NCBI GenBank assembly: GCA_903877135.1
Contig: CAIRCN010000062.1
Span: forward strand, 1 to 35,815
Reading direction: 5' to 3'
Length of the DNA stretch: 35,815 bases
DNA from: an uncultured Opitutia bacterium
Lineage (GTDB): Bacteria; Verrucomicrobiota; Verrucomicrobiia; Opitutales; Opitutaceae
Shown: positions 10,051-15,877 of the stretch, in pieces
How positions within the stretch are numbered: position 1 is the stretch's first letter
Layout of the letters: every line of letters starts with the position of its first letter
The notes under the pieces: generated by a model
Seen by the model: the letters and a program-made list of their open reading frames with translations, nothing else
What the model was told of the DNA's origin: nothing
The model's database searches: none
Program-made: the position numbers and the translations under genes

Positions 10051-10524
10051 TTACAGTTTCAGGATCTTGACCCCCGCCTCTTCGAGCAGCGGCGCCACGA
10101 GTTCGTCGTTCTTGTAATCGAGGCGATAACGCACCTCCGCGATGCCGGCGGCGGCGAGGATTTTCGCGCAGTTGATGCACGGGTAATGCGTCACATATGC
10201 CACGCAGCCCTCGACCGAGCTGCCGCGGCGCGCGGCGTCGGCCACCGCGTTTTGCTCGGCGTGCACCGTCGCCTGCTCGTGACCGTCGCGCATGCGCGAA
10301 TGGTGGGGCGTGCCCGGCAGGTGGCCGTTGTAGCCGGCCGCGACAATGCGGTTCTTGCGCGCCCCGCCCGTCACCACCACGCAGCCGACGTGGAGCCGCT
10401 CGCAGTTCGAGCGCGTGGCCAGCAGCACAGCCGTTGCCATGAAATACTCGTCCCACGACGGACGGTGCGGAAATTTTGACGCGGCTTTGGCGATCAGATC
10501 GACGGGATTTTTGGCGGCACTCAT
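10051..10524 (-). CDS. Deoxycytidylate (dCMP) deaminase
   Basis: A 157-residue zinc enzyme of the ComEB/dCMP deaminase family, converting dCMP to dUMP for thymidylate synthesis. The fold is marked by SWDEYFMATAVLLATRSNC near the N terminus, an Asn-containing AAGYNGHLPGTPH substrate loop, HAEQNAVADAA (zinc His and catalytic Glu) and HYPCINCAKIL (two zinc Cys). An alternative start at 10533 would add three residues (MFS); neither has a Shine-Dalgarno. It is divergent from the type III PKS operon; the 56-bp spacer contains a perfect hairpin. Confidence 0.9.
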   Translation of the reverse strand: MSAAKNPVDLIAKAASKFPHRPSWDEYFMATAVLLATRSNCERLHVGCVVVTGGARKNRIVAAGYNGHLPGTPHHSRMRDGHEQATVHAEQNAVADAARRGSSVEGCVAYVTHYPCINCAKILAAAGIAEVRYRLDYKNDELVAPLLEEAGVKILKL

Positions 10525-10548
10525 GGAAAACATCCGGCATTCTGGACA

Positions 10549-10580: not shown

Positions 10581-11225
10581 ATGTTGCGCACCCACCAGCC
10601 GGAATGGCTCGATTCGCTACCGCCTCACCATCCTGACGCCTTGCACAACCGCCGCGATCTGCGGTTGACCAATCGGGTGATGGGAAATCACCGCTGGTTC
10701 CTGCGCACCCTGCCGCCGCTGTCGCGACACAATCAACCCGTTCTCGAACTCGGTGCCGGCACTGGCGAACTCGCCGCCACACTGGCGGCTTCCGGGCTTA
10801 ACCTGGACGGCCTTGATCTTTGGCCCCAGCCCGACAACTGGCCGGCCAGTCAGACGTGGCACACCGGCGATCTGCGCACGTTTGCAGACTACGGGCGCTA
10901 CTCTGGCGTCATCGGTAACCTCATCTTTCATCAGTTCACTGACGGCGAGCTGGCCGCCCTCGGCGAAAAACTCCGCCAGACCGCGTGTCTGATTGTCGCG
11001 TGCGAACCGGCCCGCCGTCGCCTCTCCCAGATTCTTTATCGCATCCTCGGGCCGCTCTTTGGCGCCAATCGAGTGAGCCTGCACGATGCGCACGTCAGCA
11101 TTGCCGCCGGTTTTTGCGGCGTAGAATTGCCTCACGCTCTCGGGCTGAAGGCGGAAACGTGGGAATGGCATTGTGCCACGACTCCGTTCGGCGCCTATCG
11201 CATGGTCGCCCGTCGCCACGCATGA
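10581..11225 (+). CDS. SAM-dependent methyltransferase of the type III PKS cassette
   Basis: A 214-residue class I methyltransferase. The SAM-binding motif I is VLELGAGTGELAATLAASG, followed by an acidic position in LDGLDLW and the motif-IV-like GVIGNLIFHQFTDGELAAL. The rest is variable and contains a segment (RRRLSQILYRILGPLF) seen in small-molecule methyltransferases. Because it opens a three-gene cassette ending in a type III polyketide synthase, it most likely methylates the polyketide or a derivative; the acceptor atom is unknown. The ATG at 10581 was chosen because the upstream open extension has no family features. Its stop overlaps the next start (ATGA). Confidence 0.78.
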   Translation: MLRTHQPEWLDSLPPHHPDALHNRRDLRLTNRVMGNHRWFLRTLPPLSRHNQPVLELGAGTGELAATLAASGLNLDGLDLWPQPDNWPASQTWHTGDLRTFADYGRYSGVIGNLIFHQFTDGELAALGEKLRQTACLIVACEPARRRLSQILYRILGPLFGANRVSLHDAHVSIAAGFCGVELPHALGLKAETWEWHCATTPFGAYRMVARRHA

Positions 11226-12244
11226 ATTTCCCGCGCCCCATCGAGATCATCGGCGGCGGACTCGCCGGCCTGTCGCTCGGCCTCGCTCTGCGCCGGGCCG
11301 GCGCCACGGTCACGCTGTTCGAGACGGGCATCTATCCGCGGCACCGGGTTTGCGGCGAATTCATCGCCGGGCTGCACTCCGAAACAATCCGCCGCCTCGG
11401 CCTTGCGCCGATTCTGGCCGACGCGCTCCGGCACCATGAAGTCGCGTGGTTCATCGGCGAACGGCCCGCGCGCGTCCAACGCCTCCCCTCGCCCGCGCTC
11501 GGGCTCAGCCGCCACACGCTCGACGCGCGGCTGGCGGAGGCGTTTGTCGCCGCCGGCGGCACGCTGCACCAACATACGCGCGTGACCGACACGGCGGCGG
11601 TCCCTGGTCGGGTGTTTGCGACCGGACGGCGCCACGGTCGCTCACCGTGGCTGGGTCTGAAAGTCCACGCGCTCGGCCTGCCGCTGGCGCGAGACCTCGA
11701 ATTGCACCTCGGAGCGCAGGCCTACGTCGGGCTCGCGCGCGTCGACGACCGGCGAGTTAACGTTTGCGGACTCTTCCAGCGGTGCGAAATCTCCGCCAAA
11801 GGCCCAAATCTCCTGCTCAACTACCTCCAGGCCGCGGGACTCGGCCAGCTCACGGCACGTCTCGCCGCAGCGGAGTTTGACGCAGATTCGTTCTGCGCCG
11901 TCGCAGCCGTCTGTTTCGACAGCCGCGTGCCTGTGAGCGACGAACTGCGCATCGGCGACGCGTGCGCGACGATTCCGCCGTTCACCGGCAACGGCATGTC
12001 CATGGCCTTTCAGAGCGCTGAGCTGGCCCTCGATCCGCTGCTCGCCTACGCGAGCGGCAAATCAGCGTGGCCCGAGGCTTGTCACACCGCAAACGTGGCC
12101 GTGCGCCGCCGATTCCGCGTGCGGCTGGCCGCCGCGAGCTGCCTTCACCCGTTTCTGCTGCAACCGCCCTGGCAGCGTTGGCTCGCGCGCCTCGCCCGCG
12201 CCCGGCTCCTGCCGCTGCGGCCACTTTACGCCGCCCTCCACTGA
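11222..12244 (+). CDS. FAD-dependent oxidoreductase of the type III PKS cassette
   Basis: A 340-residue flavoprotein of the PHBH/geranylgeranyl reductase-like group. The N-terminal dinucleotide motif is IIGGGLAGLSLGLALRRAG with a following acidic residue (LFE). A Cys-containing VCGEFIAGLHSE loop follows, and the second FAD motif is IGDACATIPPFTGNGMSMAF. Such enzymes hydroxylate aromatic rings or reduce isoprenoid double bonds; beside a type III PKS, aromatic hydroxylation to a quinone precursor is the better guess. It overlaps the methyltransferase stop by 4 bp, and its own TGA shares a base with the PKS ATG, so the three are probably translated in a coupled way. Confidence 0.82.
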   Translation: MNFPRPIEIIGGGLAGLSLGLALRRAGATVTLFETGIYPRHRVCGEFIAGLHSETIRRLGLAPILADALRHHEVAWFIGERPARVQRLPSPALGLSRHTLDARLAEAFVAAGGTLHQHTRVTDTAAVPGRVFATGRRHGRSPWLGLKVHALGLPLARDLELHLGAQAYVGLARVDDRRVNVCGLFQRCEISAKGPNLLLNYLQAAGLGQLTARLAAAEFDADSFCAVAAVCFDSRVPVSDELRIGDACATIPPFTGNGMSMAFQSAELALDPLLAYASGKSAWPEACHTANVAVRRRFRVRLAAASCLHPFLLQPPWQRWLARLARARLLPLRPLYAALH

Positions 12245-13275
12245 TGTTCCTCCACGCACTCGCCACCGCCGTTCCGTCCGCTCGCTTCACCCAGGCCGAA
12301 TGCTGGGAGATCACGCAACGCTCCGGCGTGCGCGAGCGCCTCCACCGCCGATCCCGCCTCATTCTGCAGAGCATCCTGCGCGGCGACCACGGCATCGCGA
12401 CGCGACATTTCGCGGTGCCACAAATCGAGCGAGTGTTTGATCTCACCTCCGACGAACTCAACGCGGCGTTTCGCAGCGAGGCGCCAAAACTAGCCGGACG
12501 CGCCCTTGCCGCCGCACTTGAGCAGACCGCTGTGCGCCCCGCCGACCTCGACGCGCTCCTGATCTGCACCTGCACCGGCTACCTCTGTCCAGGGCTGACC
12601 AGCTACGTCGCCGAGCAACTCGGGCTGCGCACCGATGCGTTTCTTCAAGACCTCGTCGGCCTCGGCTGTGGCGCGGCGATCCCCACCCTGCGAGCCGCGA
12701 GCCATGTGCTTGCCGCTCACCCCAATGCCACCGTCGCCTGCGTGGCGGTGGAGATTTGCTCCACGGCTTTTTATCTCGATGACGATCCCGGCGTGCTCAT
12801 CAGCGCCTGTCTCTTCAGCGATGGCGCCGCAGCTACGGTATGGCGCGCCACTCCCGGGCCGACCGCGCTCCGCTGCTTCGGATTCGACACGGTCCATGTG
12901 CCCGCCGACCGCGACAAACTCCGTTTCGAACAGCACGACGGCAAATTGCGCAACTTGCTCGACCGTTCCGTGCCCGAACTCGCCGCCAGCGCCGTCGGTC
13001 GTCTCTGGCAGCAACGCGGCGCGCGTCCCGTTTCGCAAGTTGTCGCGCACCCGGGCGGCCGCGATGTCCTCGCCGCGCTCGCCCCGGTCGTGGCGCCCTA
13101 CTCTCTCGACGCCAGCGCGCGCGTCCTCCGCGATTTTGGCAACATGAGCAGTCCGTCCGTGCTGTTCGCACTGGAGGAGACACTGAAGACCGCCGCGCAC
13201 GGCGCCGACGGTGATTTTTGGCTCGTGAGTTTTGGCGCGGGCTTTAGCGCACATAGTTGCCGAATCGGCACCTGA
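12244..13275 (+). CDS. Type III polyketide synthase (chalcone/stilbene synthase-like)
   Basis: A 343-residue homodimeric thiolase-fold condensing enzyme. The full Cys-His-Asn triad is visible: Cys142 in VGLGCGAAIP, His269 in VVAHPGGRDVL and Asn300 in GNMSSPSVLF. The LICTCTGYLCPGL segment is typical of bacterial members. These enzymes extend a CoA starter with malonyl-CoA and cyclise it to resorcinols or pyrones; starter size and ring type cannot be read here. The N-terminal region includes LILQSILRGDHGIATRHFAVP, as in the alkylresorcinol/alkylpyrone type. The Nif3 gene starts 3 bp after the stop. Confidence 0.93.
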   Translation: MFLHALATAVPSARFTQAECWEITQRSGVRERLHRRSRLILQSILRGDHGIATRHFAVPQIERVFDLTSDELNAAFRSEAPKLAGRALAAALEQTAVRPADLDALLICTCTGYLCPGLTSYVAEQLGLRTDAFLQDLVGLGCGAAIPTLRAASHVLAAHPNATVACVAVEICSTAFYLDDDPGVLISACLFSDGAAATVWRATPGPTALRCFGFDTVHVPADRDKLRFEQHDGKLRNLLDRSVPELAASAVGRLWQQRGARPVSQVVAHPGGRDVLAALAPVVAPYSLDASARVLRDFGNMSSPSVLFALEETLKTAAHGADGDFWLVSFGAGFSAHSCRIGT

Positions 13276-13278
13276 GCC

Positions 13279-14031
13279 ATGCCCAAACTCTCCGACCTCG
13301 TTGCCTACTGCGACCGCCGCACCCGCCGCGCCGCGTTCAAGGACTCGCCCGGCGCCTTCAACGGCCTGCAGATGGCCAACTCCGGCCGCGTGACCAAAAT
13401 TGGCGCCGCGGTCGACGCCGGCCTCGCGCCCTTCCAGCAAGCTGTCGCCGCCGGCGTGGATTTCCTGATCGTGCACCACGGCATGTTCTGGGACATGCCG
13501 CGGCCGCTCACCGGCCCGGTTTACGAACGGGTCGCGATGCTCGTGCGCGGCAACTGCGCGCTCTACTCGAACCATCTGCCGCTCGATTCGCACCCACAGA
13601 TCGGCAACAACGCCCTGCTCGCCCGCCAGCTCGGTCTTACGGCCCGCCGCGGCTTCCTGCCCAACGAAGGCGGCCCCATCGGTCGCATCGCTCCCAGCCG
13701 TCTCCCCCGCGCAGCACTCCGTGCGAAACTCGAAAAGCTTTATCCGCGCGTGACCGCCATTGAATGCGGCTCAGCCGCGCCCCGCGCCATCGCGTTTTGC
13801 AGCGGCAATGGCGCCAGCGCGGTCCCTGTCCTCCTCGCCGAGGGCGTGGACACGCTCGTGACCGGCGAGCTGCGCGAGGACGTGTTCAACCGCGCCCAGG
13901 AGGAGAAACTCAACCTCTACCTCTGCGGCCACTACGCGACCGAGGTCCACGCGGTGAAAGCGCTCGCCGCCGAACTCGCCGCAAAGTTTGGATTGCCGTG
14001 GGAGTTCATCGCCACCGACAATCCACTCTGA
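13279..14031 (+). CDS. Nif3-like dinuclear metal-centre protein (DUF34)
   Basis: A 250-residue member of the widespread Nif3/YbgI family, whose bacterial function is unsettled (often labelled GTP cyclohydrolase I type 2). Metal-ligand motifs are visible: VHHGMFW (tandem His), SNHLPLDSHPQIGNN, and the C-terminal GHYATEVHAVKAL. Length is that of the short, single-domain form. It sits 3 bp after the PKS gene and 13 bp before aroQ, so it is carried on the same transcript, but nothing suggests a role in polyketide synthesis. Confidence 0.88.
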   Translation: MPKLSDLVAYCDRRTRRAAFKDSPGAFNGLQMANSGRVTKIGAAVDAGLAPFQQAVAAGVDFLIVHHGMFWDMPRPLTGPVYERVAMLVRGNCALYSNHLPLDSHPQIGNNALLARQLGLTARRGFLPNEGGPIGRIAPSRLPRAALRAKLEKLYPRVTAIECGSAAPRAIAFCSGNGASAVPVLLAEGVDTLVTGELREDVFNRAQEEKLNLYLCGHYATEVHAVKALAAELAAKFGLPWEFIATDNPL

Positions 14032-14477: not shown

Positions 14478-14969
14478 ATGAACGACCTCGCCTGGTTTGT
14501 CTGTCACACGCGCCCCCGCTGTGAAAAGAAGTTCGCCGCCCTGATGAAGGCGGAGGGATTTGAACACTATCTGGCGCTAGTCCTGAGCGTGCGCAAATAC
14601 CGCCTGCAGACGAAGCGCTTCAGCAAACCGCTATTCCCCGGCTACGTGTTCGCCTGCATCCCGCTGGAAAAGAAAGCGCGCATCTACCAGCAGGAACTGA
14701 TCGCCCGCGCCATCCCGGTCGTGGACGAGGCGCGCTTCCTCCGACAGCTCACCGACGTCAAAGCCATCGTCGCTTCTGGTTACGAGCTGAGCGTGTTGCC
14801 GCTCCTCACACGTGGCCGGCGCGTAAAAGTCGTCGGCGGCCCACTCCATGGCCTGGAAGGCCTGATCGACGATCCGTCGAACCCCCGGGGCATCGTGCTG
14901 GTGGTCGATGTGCTCCAGCAGGGCCTGCTCGTGAAAATGCCAGTGGAACATTTGCAGGTTTTGCCCTAA
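14478..14969 (+). CDS. NusG/RfaH-family transcription elongation factor paralogue
   Basis: A 163-residue protein with the two domains of the NusG family. The NGN domain begins LAWFVCHTRPRCEKKFAALM and contains LFPGYVFACI (about residues 1-100). The KOW domain follows, RGRRVKVVGGPLHGLEGLI (about 110-163). Housekeeping NusG normally lies beside secE and the rplKA genes; this copy sits between aroQ and a secreted protein gene, so it is better read as a specialised paralogue of the RfaH/LoaP/UpxY type that prevents premature termination in particular operons. It starts 4 bp after aroQ and 11 bp before the next gene. The target operon is unknown. Confidence 0.85.
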   Translation: MNDLAWFVCHTRPRCEKKFAALMKAEGFEHYLALVLSVRKYRLQTKRFSKPLFPGYVFACIPLEKKARIYQQELIARAIPVVDEARFLRQLTDVKAIVASGYELSVLPLLTRGRRVKVVGGPLHGLEGLIDDPSNPRGIVLVVDVLQQGLLVKMPVEHLQVLP

Positions 14970-14980
14970 CAAAGGGGGGT

Positions 14981-15877
14981 GTGAATACGCCCCGACGCCT
15001 ACTCTCCGCCGGACTCTGTCTTGGGCTGCTCCTCTATTCTATGGTGGAGCGGGCTGAGGCCCAGCCGGAAGAACTCAACTCGGCCCCCGGCTATTTCGGC
15101 GAATTGCTCGACCGCATTCCCAACCTCGGCAATTTGGAGCTGCCCAGCTTCATGCCCGAGGGCATGGCCAAGTTCTACAGCAGCCCCCATTTTGGCGACC
15201 TTCTGCACCGGGAATACCTGCGGGTGCCGGTCGGCATGCGGGCCAAACTCACCAAACAGCTTGAGGCCCATGCTGAGCTCGAGAGCTATTTCACCCATGG
15301 GCTACGCGAGGGCGCCGGCTACGGCCTCGACCGGCTTCGCCTCGGTGGAAAATACGAGATCACCTCGTCGTCATCGACCGGCACCGCTTGGAGCACCGGC
15401 GTGGACTTCGAAACACCGCTCGGCCGCCCGCCCACCGAACTCAGCGACGGCCACCGCCATATCATGCCCTATGTCTCCGCGTCGCGTCCGATCATCCCCG
15501 ACTGGCATTTGCTCGGCTACAGCACTCTCGGCGCTGATCTGCTCTCCTCGACGTCGCTGCCGTCTAATTTCGGCCGCAATCAACTGCACACCGACGCCCT
15601 CACGCTGGCCACCGGCGTCGCCCGCGACTGGCCGCTGTTCAACACCTCACTGACCGCCACCTATGCGACCTCAGAGTTGTTCAGCAACGAGAGCTCCCAT
15701 GTTTTCTCTCTGCGGCCAGCCGTGATCATTCCGCTCCGGCGGCTGGAGGGAAAACACACCCGATTGATCCTCACGCTCAGTGCCCGCTCCACTTGGGGCC
15801 CGGACGGCCACGAACTCGGCACCAGCGCCAGTGTGCGAGTGGAGTTCCTGTTCCGCCCGCGAATCGACATCAAATAA
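14981..15877 (+). CDS. Secreted, possibly outer-membrane beta-barrel protein of unknown function
   Basis: A 298-residue protein not recognised as a named family. It has a signal peptide (RR then GLCLGLLLYSMVERAEA, cleavage near AEA-Q). The second half alternates polar and hydrophobic residues in strand-like runs (RLGGKYEITSS, LFNTSLTATYATSE, RLILTLSARSTW) and ends with VRVEFLFRP, all consistent with a barrel resembling the MetA-pathway/transporter-like outer-membrane family, though this is inference. The GTG at 14981 is preceded by AAAGGGGGG, one of the few strong ribosome-binding sites in the window. It is the last gene of the operon, right after the NusG paralogue. Confidence 0.6.
   Translation: MNTPRRLLSAGLCLGLLLYSMVERAEAQPEELNSAPGYFGELLDRIPNLGNLELPSFMPEGMAKFYSSPHFGDLLHREYLRVPVGMRAKLTKQLEAHAELESYFTHGLREGAGYGLDRLRLGGKYEITSSSSTGTAWSTGVDFETPLGRPPTELSDGHRHIMPYVSASRPIIPDWHLLGYSTLGADLLSSTSLPSNFGRNQLHTDALTLATGVARDWPLFNTSLTATYATSELFSNESSHVFSLRPAVIIPLRRLEGKHTRLILTLSARSTWGPDGHELGTSASVRVEFLFRPRIDIK

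Follow-up and report, generated by a model that had tools for sequence, protein, structure and literature searches.

A 35,815-nucleotide stretch of DNA from an uncultured Opitutia bacterium (Verrucomicrobiota; GenBank assembly GCA_903877135.1, contig CAIRCN010000062.1), here called the window and corresponding to contig C62 of a 4.2-Mb source genome, carries a three-gene cassette that is a real, conserved, translationally coupled biosynthetic unit. Its genes, all on the forward strand and each running from an ATG to a TGA, encode a class I S-adenosylmethionine-dependent methyltransferase (MT; positions 10581 to 11225, 214 amino acids [aa]), a flavin adenine dinucleotide (FAD)-dependent oxidoreductase with a p-hydroxybenzoate hydroxylase fold, similar to geranylgeranyl reductases and halogenases (11222 to 12244, 340 aa), and a type III polyketide synthase (PKS) of the set that we term group I (12244 to 13275, 343 aa). 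By profile, the MT is HidA-like and the oxidoreductase is HidB-like. The MT stop and the FAD start share 4 bp in an ATGA motif (11222 to 11225), and the FAD stop and the PKS start share 1 bp in a TGATG motif (12242 to 12246), exactly as described in an earlier note on this DNA that proposed a coupled unit; these stop/start overlaps probably couple translation of the three genes. A promoter scan found none. Cassettes of this kind are known from hidABC and from a planctomycete operon, and the one in the window shares their build and probably their mode of working, but with a synthase from a different deep branch, one without a characterized member in the open-license literature searched. Judged from sequence, we consider it somewhat probable that the three enzymes form a pathway to a small methylated, oxidized phenolic compound, probably lipid-like.

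Conservation was scored in 273 genomes of the taxonomic order, evenly drawn from a larger group, using the best candidates per genome. PKS matches were present in 67 genomes, and four of these (G093, G167, G185, and G216), which carry other PKS types at 20 to 34% identity, were dropped to leave 63. The FAD family was found in 60 genomes, namely, 59 of the 63 with the PKS versus 1 of the 210 others, and the MT family was found in 61 (59 of 63 versus 2 of 210); the Fisher P values for co-occurrence with the PKS, uncorrected for shared descent, were ~8e-54 for FAD and ~2e-52 for MT. These 63 genomes provided 64 loci, comprising 47 with contiguous MT-FAD-PKS, 10 with a PKS and neither partner nearby, 4 with FAD-PKS, 2 with MT-PKS, and 1 with an MT-FAD pair 2 kb beyond the PKS. 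At the class level, where 20 of the 23 genomes with this PKS type provided loci, the MT-FAD-PKS arrangement was present in 18 of 20. The earlier note had staked its proposal in advance on the MT and the flavoprotein being kept beside the PKS in relatives, and these counts bear it out. Moreover, 52 of 65 loci with contiguous MT-FAD-PKS share the exact 4-bp MT/FAD overlap (start codons were chosen by script), and 16 of 64 share the 1-bp FAD/PKS overlap. Co-occurrence and overlap conservation together rule out a chance neighborhood. In six genomes (G042, G119, G041, G071, G022, and G056) the MT-FAD pair and the PKS lie on different contigs, and in G002 the three genes are spread over three contigs; some of the contigs with an unlinked pair or PKS are short. 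Thus, the gene set is kept even without linkage. G063 and G147 have PKS and FAD without MT, but their contigs end there. Two cassette copies with identical match scores occur in G112 (contigs C66 and C70, loci L062 and L063), either a duplication or an assembly artifact.

The PKS passes the Pfam cutoffs for FAE1_CUT1_RppA, Chal_sti_synt_N, Chal_sti_synt_C, and ACP_syn_III_C. The full Cys142-His269-Asn300 triad noted earlier is indeed in place; it is invariant in 10 of 10 aligned rows and aligns with the triads of THNS, Pks11, Pks18, and a CHS-type enzyme. The triad and the chalcone/stilbene synthase domains mark the protein as a type III PKS. Its best NCBIfam match was DpgA (E = 1.2e-36), at 126.3 bits against a cutoff of 425, and the sole other match to it in its own genome was KAS III (E = 7.6e-4). 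We built a PKS tree of 53 rows whose selection included 11 rows of group I, 5 of the 13 of group ii, which belongs to the same phylum as the window, and 20 of group III, the PKS type of the hidABC and planctomycete operons. The window PKS fell in group I (11 rows; support, 100/96), which then joined group ii (99/82); on the opposite side lay DpgA, THNS, Pks11, Pks18, 4b0n, the CHS-type enzymes, and all 20 group III rows. Placing groups I and ii in one clade with the hid-type rows was rejected by the approximately unbiased (AU) test (P = 0.000643), as was placing them with all of group III (P = 0.00683). The earlier note had called for such a tree; once run, it grouped the window PKS with no characterized enzyme, none of those among the 53 rows falling inside the group I and ii branch. 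The spread of group I beyond the window's phylum was sampled in plasmids, and we know of no characterized enzyme in the branch formed by that phylum plus Caballeronia. A genome of the same order, G094, has a cassette and a second type III PKS (L095, 7979 to 8986) that is 33% identical to the window PKS; it branches alone between group I and DpgA, and no MT or FAD match was found in the 17-kb stretch that contains it.

The two synthase sets also differ at the active-site gate. Asn237 of the window PKS, aligned via a CHS-type chain, appears to correspond to Phe265, the gatekeeper of CHS. All 16 rows of groups I and ii have Asn here, whereas all 20 rows of group III have Met or Ile; elsewhere the residue is Phe (THNS, DpgA, and the CHS-type chain), Leu (Pks11), or Cys (Pks18 and 4b0n). 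Asn237 is specific to the group I and ii set, and because of it the starter or product may differ from those of the C15/C17 alkylresorcinols.

In hidABC, the hierridin genes of picocyanobacteria (Costa et al. 2019), the reported order is MT, oxidoreductase, type III PKS (PMC10896814, PMC8086630), and the planctomycete mtr-fdo-t3pks operon, reported for 58 of 96 planctomycete PKS genes, has the same order (Milke et al. 2024, PMC10896814). The window cassette shares it. With the Paludisphaera borealis plasmid and picocyanobacterial and planctomycete operons from a genome scan as stand-ins, the MT and FAD proteins of the window proved homologous by profile to those of both systems. Profile-profile comparisons with group III, each nearly full length, gave E = 3.8e-39 and 23% identity for MT, E = 6.8e-47 and 25% for FAD, and E = 7.6e-81 and 23% for PKS; in pairwise comparison, the FAD protein was 27% identical to that of Paludisphaera and 26% to that of Synechococcus sp. 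CS-1332. Among the stand-in synthases, identities to the Paludisphaera borealis PKS were 54 to 58% for the picocyanobacterial operons and 39 to 55% for the planctomycete operons. Unlike hidABC, the window has a PKS in a separate clade, outside the HidC type. The product of the planctomycete operon is established, unlike that of the window: C15/C17 alkylresorcinols are reported from the PKSs of three species (G. maris, R. baltica, and S. maiorica), and a single methylation, probably on carbon, from addition of both tailoring genes of G. maris, MT and FAD (PMC10896814). The S. maiorica operon is described as MT plus PKS with no oxidoreductase (PMC10896814); FAD gene loss in some members is thus common to the planctomycete operon and the window's relatives.

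The trio extends well beyond these hosts. Among 84 group III loci, consisting of the best 80 of 586 matches from a scan centered on this group and 4 plasmids, 66 had both MT and FAD on the strand of the PKS at a distance of up to 4.5 kb, ordered MT-FAD-PKS in 25, PKS-MT-FAD in 23, FAD-PKS-MT in 16, and PKS-FAD-MT in 2; the other 18 were without both genes nearby, and some loci end early. Since the named hosts include Planctomycetota, Cyanobacteriota, Bacteroidota, Balneolota, Actinomycetota, Gemmatimonadota, and Deinococcota, the MT/FAD/PKS trio is widespread in bacteria. Two plasmid loci stand out: a plasmid of Deinococcus radiodurans, a much-studied species, carries a PKS-MT-FAD set with a second FAD enzyme type (L183, 3992 to 6951), and on a Microbacterium plasmid the frames of a group III PKS-MT-FAD set are split, apparently through decay (L184, 4007 to 6927).

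For the FAD tree, remote matches below the cutoff were all that a search of the source genome for close flavoprotein paralogues gave; seven own-genome paralogue rows were dropped, and two geranylgeranyl-reductase-like picocyanobacterial proteins served as the outgroup. The FADs of group I, hid-type, Bacteroidota, and alphaproteobacterial loci formed one clade, type A (96/93), and the second FAD type (Deinococcus, Arthrobacter, Balneolaceae, and others) and the reductase-like outgroups lay apart from it. A cluster on plasmid pSBC2-3 of Caballeronia sp. SBC2 (L102, 6001 to 10708) reads PKS-MT-FAD-ACP-KAS. Its PKS (99/94) and MT (100/99) fall inside the window's group, but its FAD protein has the Legionella maioricensis FAD as its sister instead (100/100); because the FAD lineage differs from those of its PKS and MT, this is a clear case of partner exchange. 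Unlike the window, the cluster has the order PKS-MT-FAD and an extra acyl carrier protein (ACP) and ketosynthase, which suggests an ACP-borne starter. From these sequence comparisons, we conclude that one MT and FAD tailoring pair serves two or more PKS lineages that are divided by a deep split.

In the pathway that we favor, the PKS would load an acyl thioester on Cys142, extend it with malonyl-CoA, and cyclize the chain, with a starter, chain length, and ring type that we infer; an alkylresorcinol-like phenol would be the likeliest product. The MT, whose homology to the HidA kind by profile suggests its activity, would then methylate the ring or a hydroxyl. Its only Pfam matches were to Methyltransf_23/25 (E up to 0.01, below curated cutoffs), and its predicted model had a predicted local distance difference test (pLDDT) score of 93. 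The flavoenzyme would act last, its fold and HidB-like homology pointing to hydroxylation of the activated ring to give a hydroquinone or quinone.

The role of the flavoenzyme can also be read differently: as a reductase or halogenase, it would give a reduced or halogenated methylated polyketide, an outcome that we regard as unlikely. The protein passes the Pfam cutoffs for FAD_binding_3, DAO, and NAD_binding_8. It was labeled a flavin hydroxylase in the earlier note, a label that sequence and predicted structure qualify: its best NCBIfam match, which speaks for a reductase, is the geranylgeranyl reductase superfamily (GG-red-SF, TIGR02032; 54.5 bits against a cutoff of 158.8) and not a UbiH-type model, and the predicted structure (pLDDT, 88) is closest to both halogenases and flavin monooxygenases. 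The top folds, which favor a halogenase, were PltA (Z = 32.1; root mean square deviation, 3.1; 325 aligned), ChlB4 (Z = 31.8), and RadH (Z = 30.8), with Mpy16 also among them; several flavin monooxygenases scored Z = 28 to 30 (3-hydroxybenzoate 6-hydroxylase, 28.6), and the geranylgeranyl reductase-like 3oz2 scored 27.6. On the predicted model, then, the fold scores give no way to tell a hydroxylase from a halogenase or a reductase, which speaks against reading a class from them. Flavin-dependent halogenases carry a WxWxIP motif, and their Lys would presumably lie among residues 60 to 90 of the FAD protein. The motif is absent from the 340-aa sequence, on which ground we rejected a halogenase, and the aligned FAD proteins have no invariant Lys in residues 60 to 90. 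By analogy, hydroxylation appears the likeliest role because hierridin B is reported to be 4-hydroxylated (PMC10896814); hierridin C, described as chlorinated by a mechanism that its source leaves unknown in the cited passages (PMC8086630), lends the halogenase some support.

Other alternatives concern the synthase. The cassette might be the plain hidABC/planctomycete pathway in a new lineage, with a fast-evolving synthase and long-chain alkylresorcinols that are methylated and 4-hydroxylated. The shared gene order, the profile homology of MT and FAD, and the single clade of type A FADs all fit this; against it stand the AU rejections (P = 0.0006 with hid-type and P = 0.007 with all of group III) and the gate, Asn in every group I and ii row versus Met/Ile in group III. 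Long branches weaken the tree argument, and we hold this explanation to be possible, though doubtful. Direct transfer of the alkylresorcinol assignment was rejected because the PKS clade differs. At the other extreme, the PKS branch would be ancient and separate, with its own gate chemistry (Asn237) and a product class other than alkylresorcinols, and MT plus FAD would be a type III polyketide tailoring module, reusable in that reading because the pair occurs on two PKS lineages and Caballeronia has exchanged a partner; we offer this tentatively. It is quite improbable, in our judgment, that the PKS, like DpgA and THNS, uses only malonyl units and builds a non-lipid phenol that MT and FAD turn into a quinone pigment or redox carrier. 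DpgA is the best NCBIfam model for the PKS, and Cys110 aligns with what we take to be Cys106 of THNS; however, DpgA lies outside the group I and ii branch, and the equivalent Cys is present in 20 of 20 group III rows, so that it does not discriminate. Moreover, cupin/P450 or dpgBCD partners are seen beside DpgA- and RppA-like enzymes, and among the representative sequences of recurrent neighbors there was no dpgBCD or cupin/P450 partner.

Several observations weigh against the favored pathway to a methylated, oxidized phenolic compound and against the separation of synthase branches. The root of the PKS tree rests on one very long outgroup branch, a KAS III, and with long branches and so distant an outgroup its exact position is unsure; HidC is represented by picocyanobacterial operon synthases as stand-ins; and Arg223, present in 16 of 16 group I and ii rows, is found also in 4 of 20 group III rows. 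The FAD tree has many long branches, and the grouping of group I FADs with Bacteroidota and alphaproteobacterial FADs has moderate support (88/87). Pairwise identities are low: the PKS reaches 26% with its Paludisphaera borealis counterpart and 31% with that of Synechococcus sp. CS-1332, the MT match to a planctomycete MT by BLAST was not significant (Expect, 7.6), and that to a picocyanobacterial MT was 21% over 151 aa (E = 1e-4). Given the low PKS identity and the rejection of a single clade, the alkylresorcinol product class is not transferable. A DG motif is the mark of NAD(P)H-using hydroxylases, and the FAD protein lacks it; with neither this motif nor WxWxIP, reduction or another oxidation is possible. 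Some relatives lack parts of the set. G054 and G020 have PKS only, with no FAD or MT; G272 and G256 have PKS and MT without FAD; and in a further family genome, G613, MT directly precedes PKS with no FAD between. Hence, with FAD or FAD and MT missing in species of two genera and in G613, the later steps are not indispensable. Conversely, G184 has FAD and MT without PKS (at a contig end), G106, a 67% complete assembly, has MT without PKS, and class locus L170 is FAD-PKS with no MT in the 2.9 kb upstream, the genome beyond being unsearched. The role of the planctomycete FAD is likewise not settled in the cited passages of its source (PMC10896814). The losses look nested, which would fit a sequence of action with PKS first, MT second, and FAD last.

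The earlier note had drawn its parallel from srsABC of Streptomyces griseus and relatives, in which a type III PKS, a methyltransferase, and a monooxygenase form a pathway that leads to quinones. The parallel holds functionally but is looser than that with hidABC and the planctomycete operon, which share gene order and distant MT and FAD homology with the window. SrsB, known here by description, is an isoprenylcysteine-type methyltransferase (PMC6669644), whereas the MT here belongs to class I and matched Methyltransf_23/25 only; membership in the srs type was rejected since the MT family differs. SrsA and PKS11 are reported to form one clade (PMC8086630). Pks11 and a Streptomyces relative, both standing in for SrsA, are far from the window PKS in our tree.

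Type III PKS clusters have been reported from soil Opitutales as uncharacterized in the cited passages (PMC12193912), and in the open-license literature searched we found no characterized type III PKS cluster of Opitutales and no description of the product in this lineage, in agreement with what the earlier note had supposed. A whole synthase branch that uses hierridin-like methyl-then-oxidize partners provides a testable product prediction and an example of enzymes exchanging partners between phyla. A quinone, should that be the product, could serve as a redox carrier, a role reported for polyketide quinones in Streptomyces (PMC9927152) and in respiration in oxygen-deficient niches (PMC10896814).

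The cassette site is bordered on the left by a divergent dCMP/cytidine deaminase gene (10051 to 10533, reverse strand) and on the right by a NIF3/DUF34 gene (13279 to 14031, forward strand), both context rather than parts of the cassette. The NIF3 start follows the PKS stop after a 3-bp gap, read directly, so the cassette does lead straight into a housekeeping gene as claimed before. A search of 61 family genomes gave 60 NIF3 matches, of which we surveyed the 30 best. The PKS adjoins NIF3 in 13 of the 30 loci, the window included, and the deaminase and NIF3 genes are adjacent with the site empty in 10 (L297, L303 to L306, L308, L316, L319, L321, and L323). In one locus (L313, from G050), MT and FAD flank NIF3 on its opposite side, and the remaining six had neither arrangement within the stretch examined; G035, with an empty site, has the cassette elsewhere in its genome. 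The cassette thus occupies this site repeatedly but can be absent from it, a pattern that could result either from recurrent losses or from recurrent transfers. Its earlier description as resident rather than mobile is upheld by the loci that share the site, but not by those in which the site is empty.

Downstream in the window, at 14478 to 15877, are a NusG-like protein and a 298-aa protein without a Pfam match at E = 0.001. When the flanks were clustered, no fourth gene proved to hold a constant position next to the cassette from family to family, and other shared neighbors reflect local synteny. Histidine kinases, present in 15 of 70 loci, vary in position and are direct neighbors of the PKS in only five, all from one family; in these loci (L062, L063, L077, L081, and L084, family f11), a convergent PAS/histidine-kinase gene directly follows the PKS.

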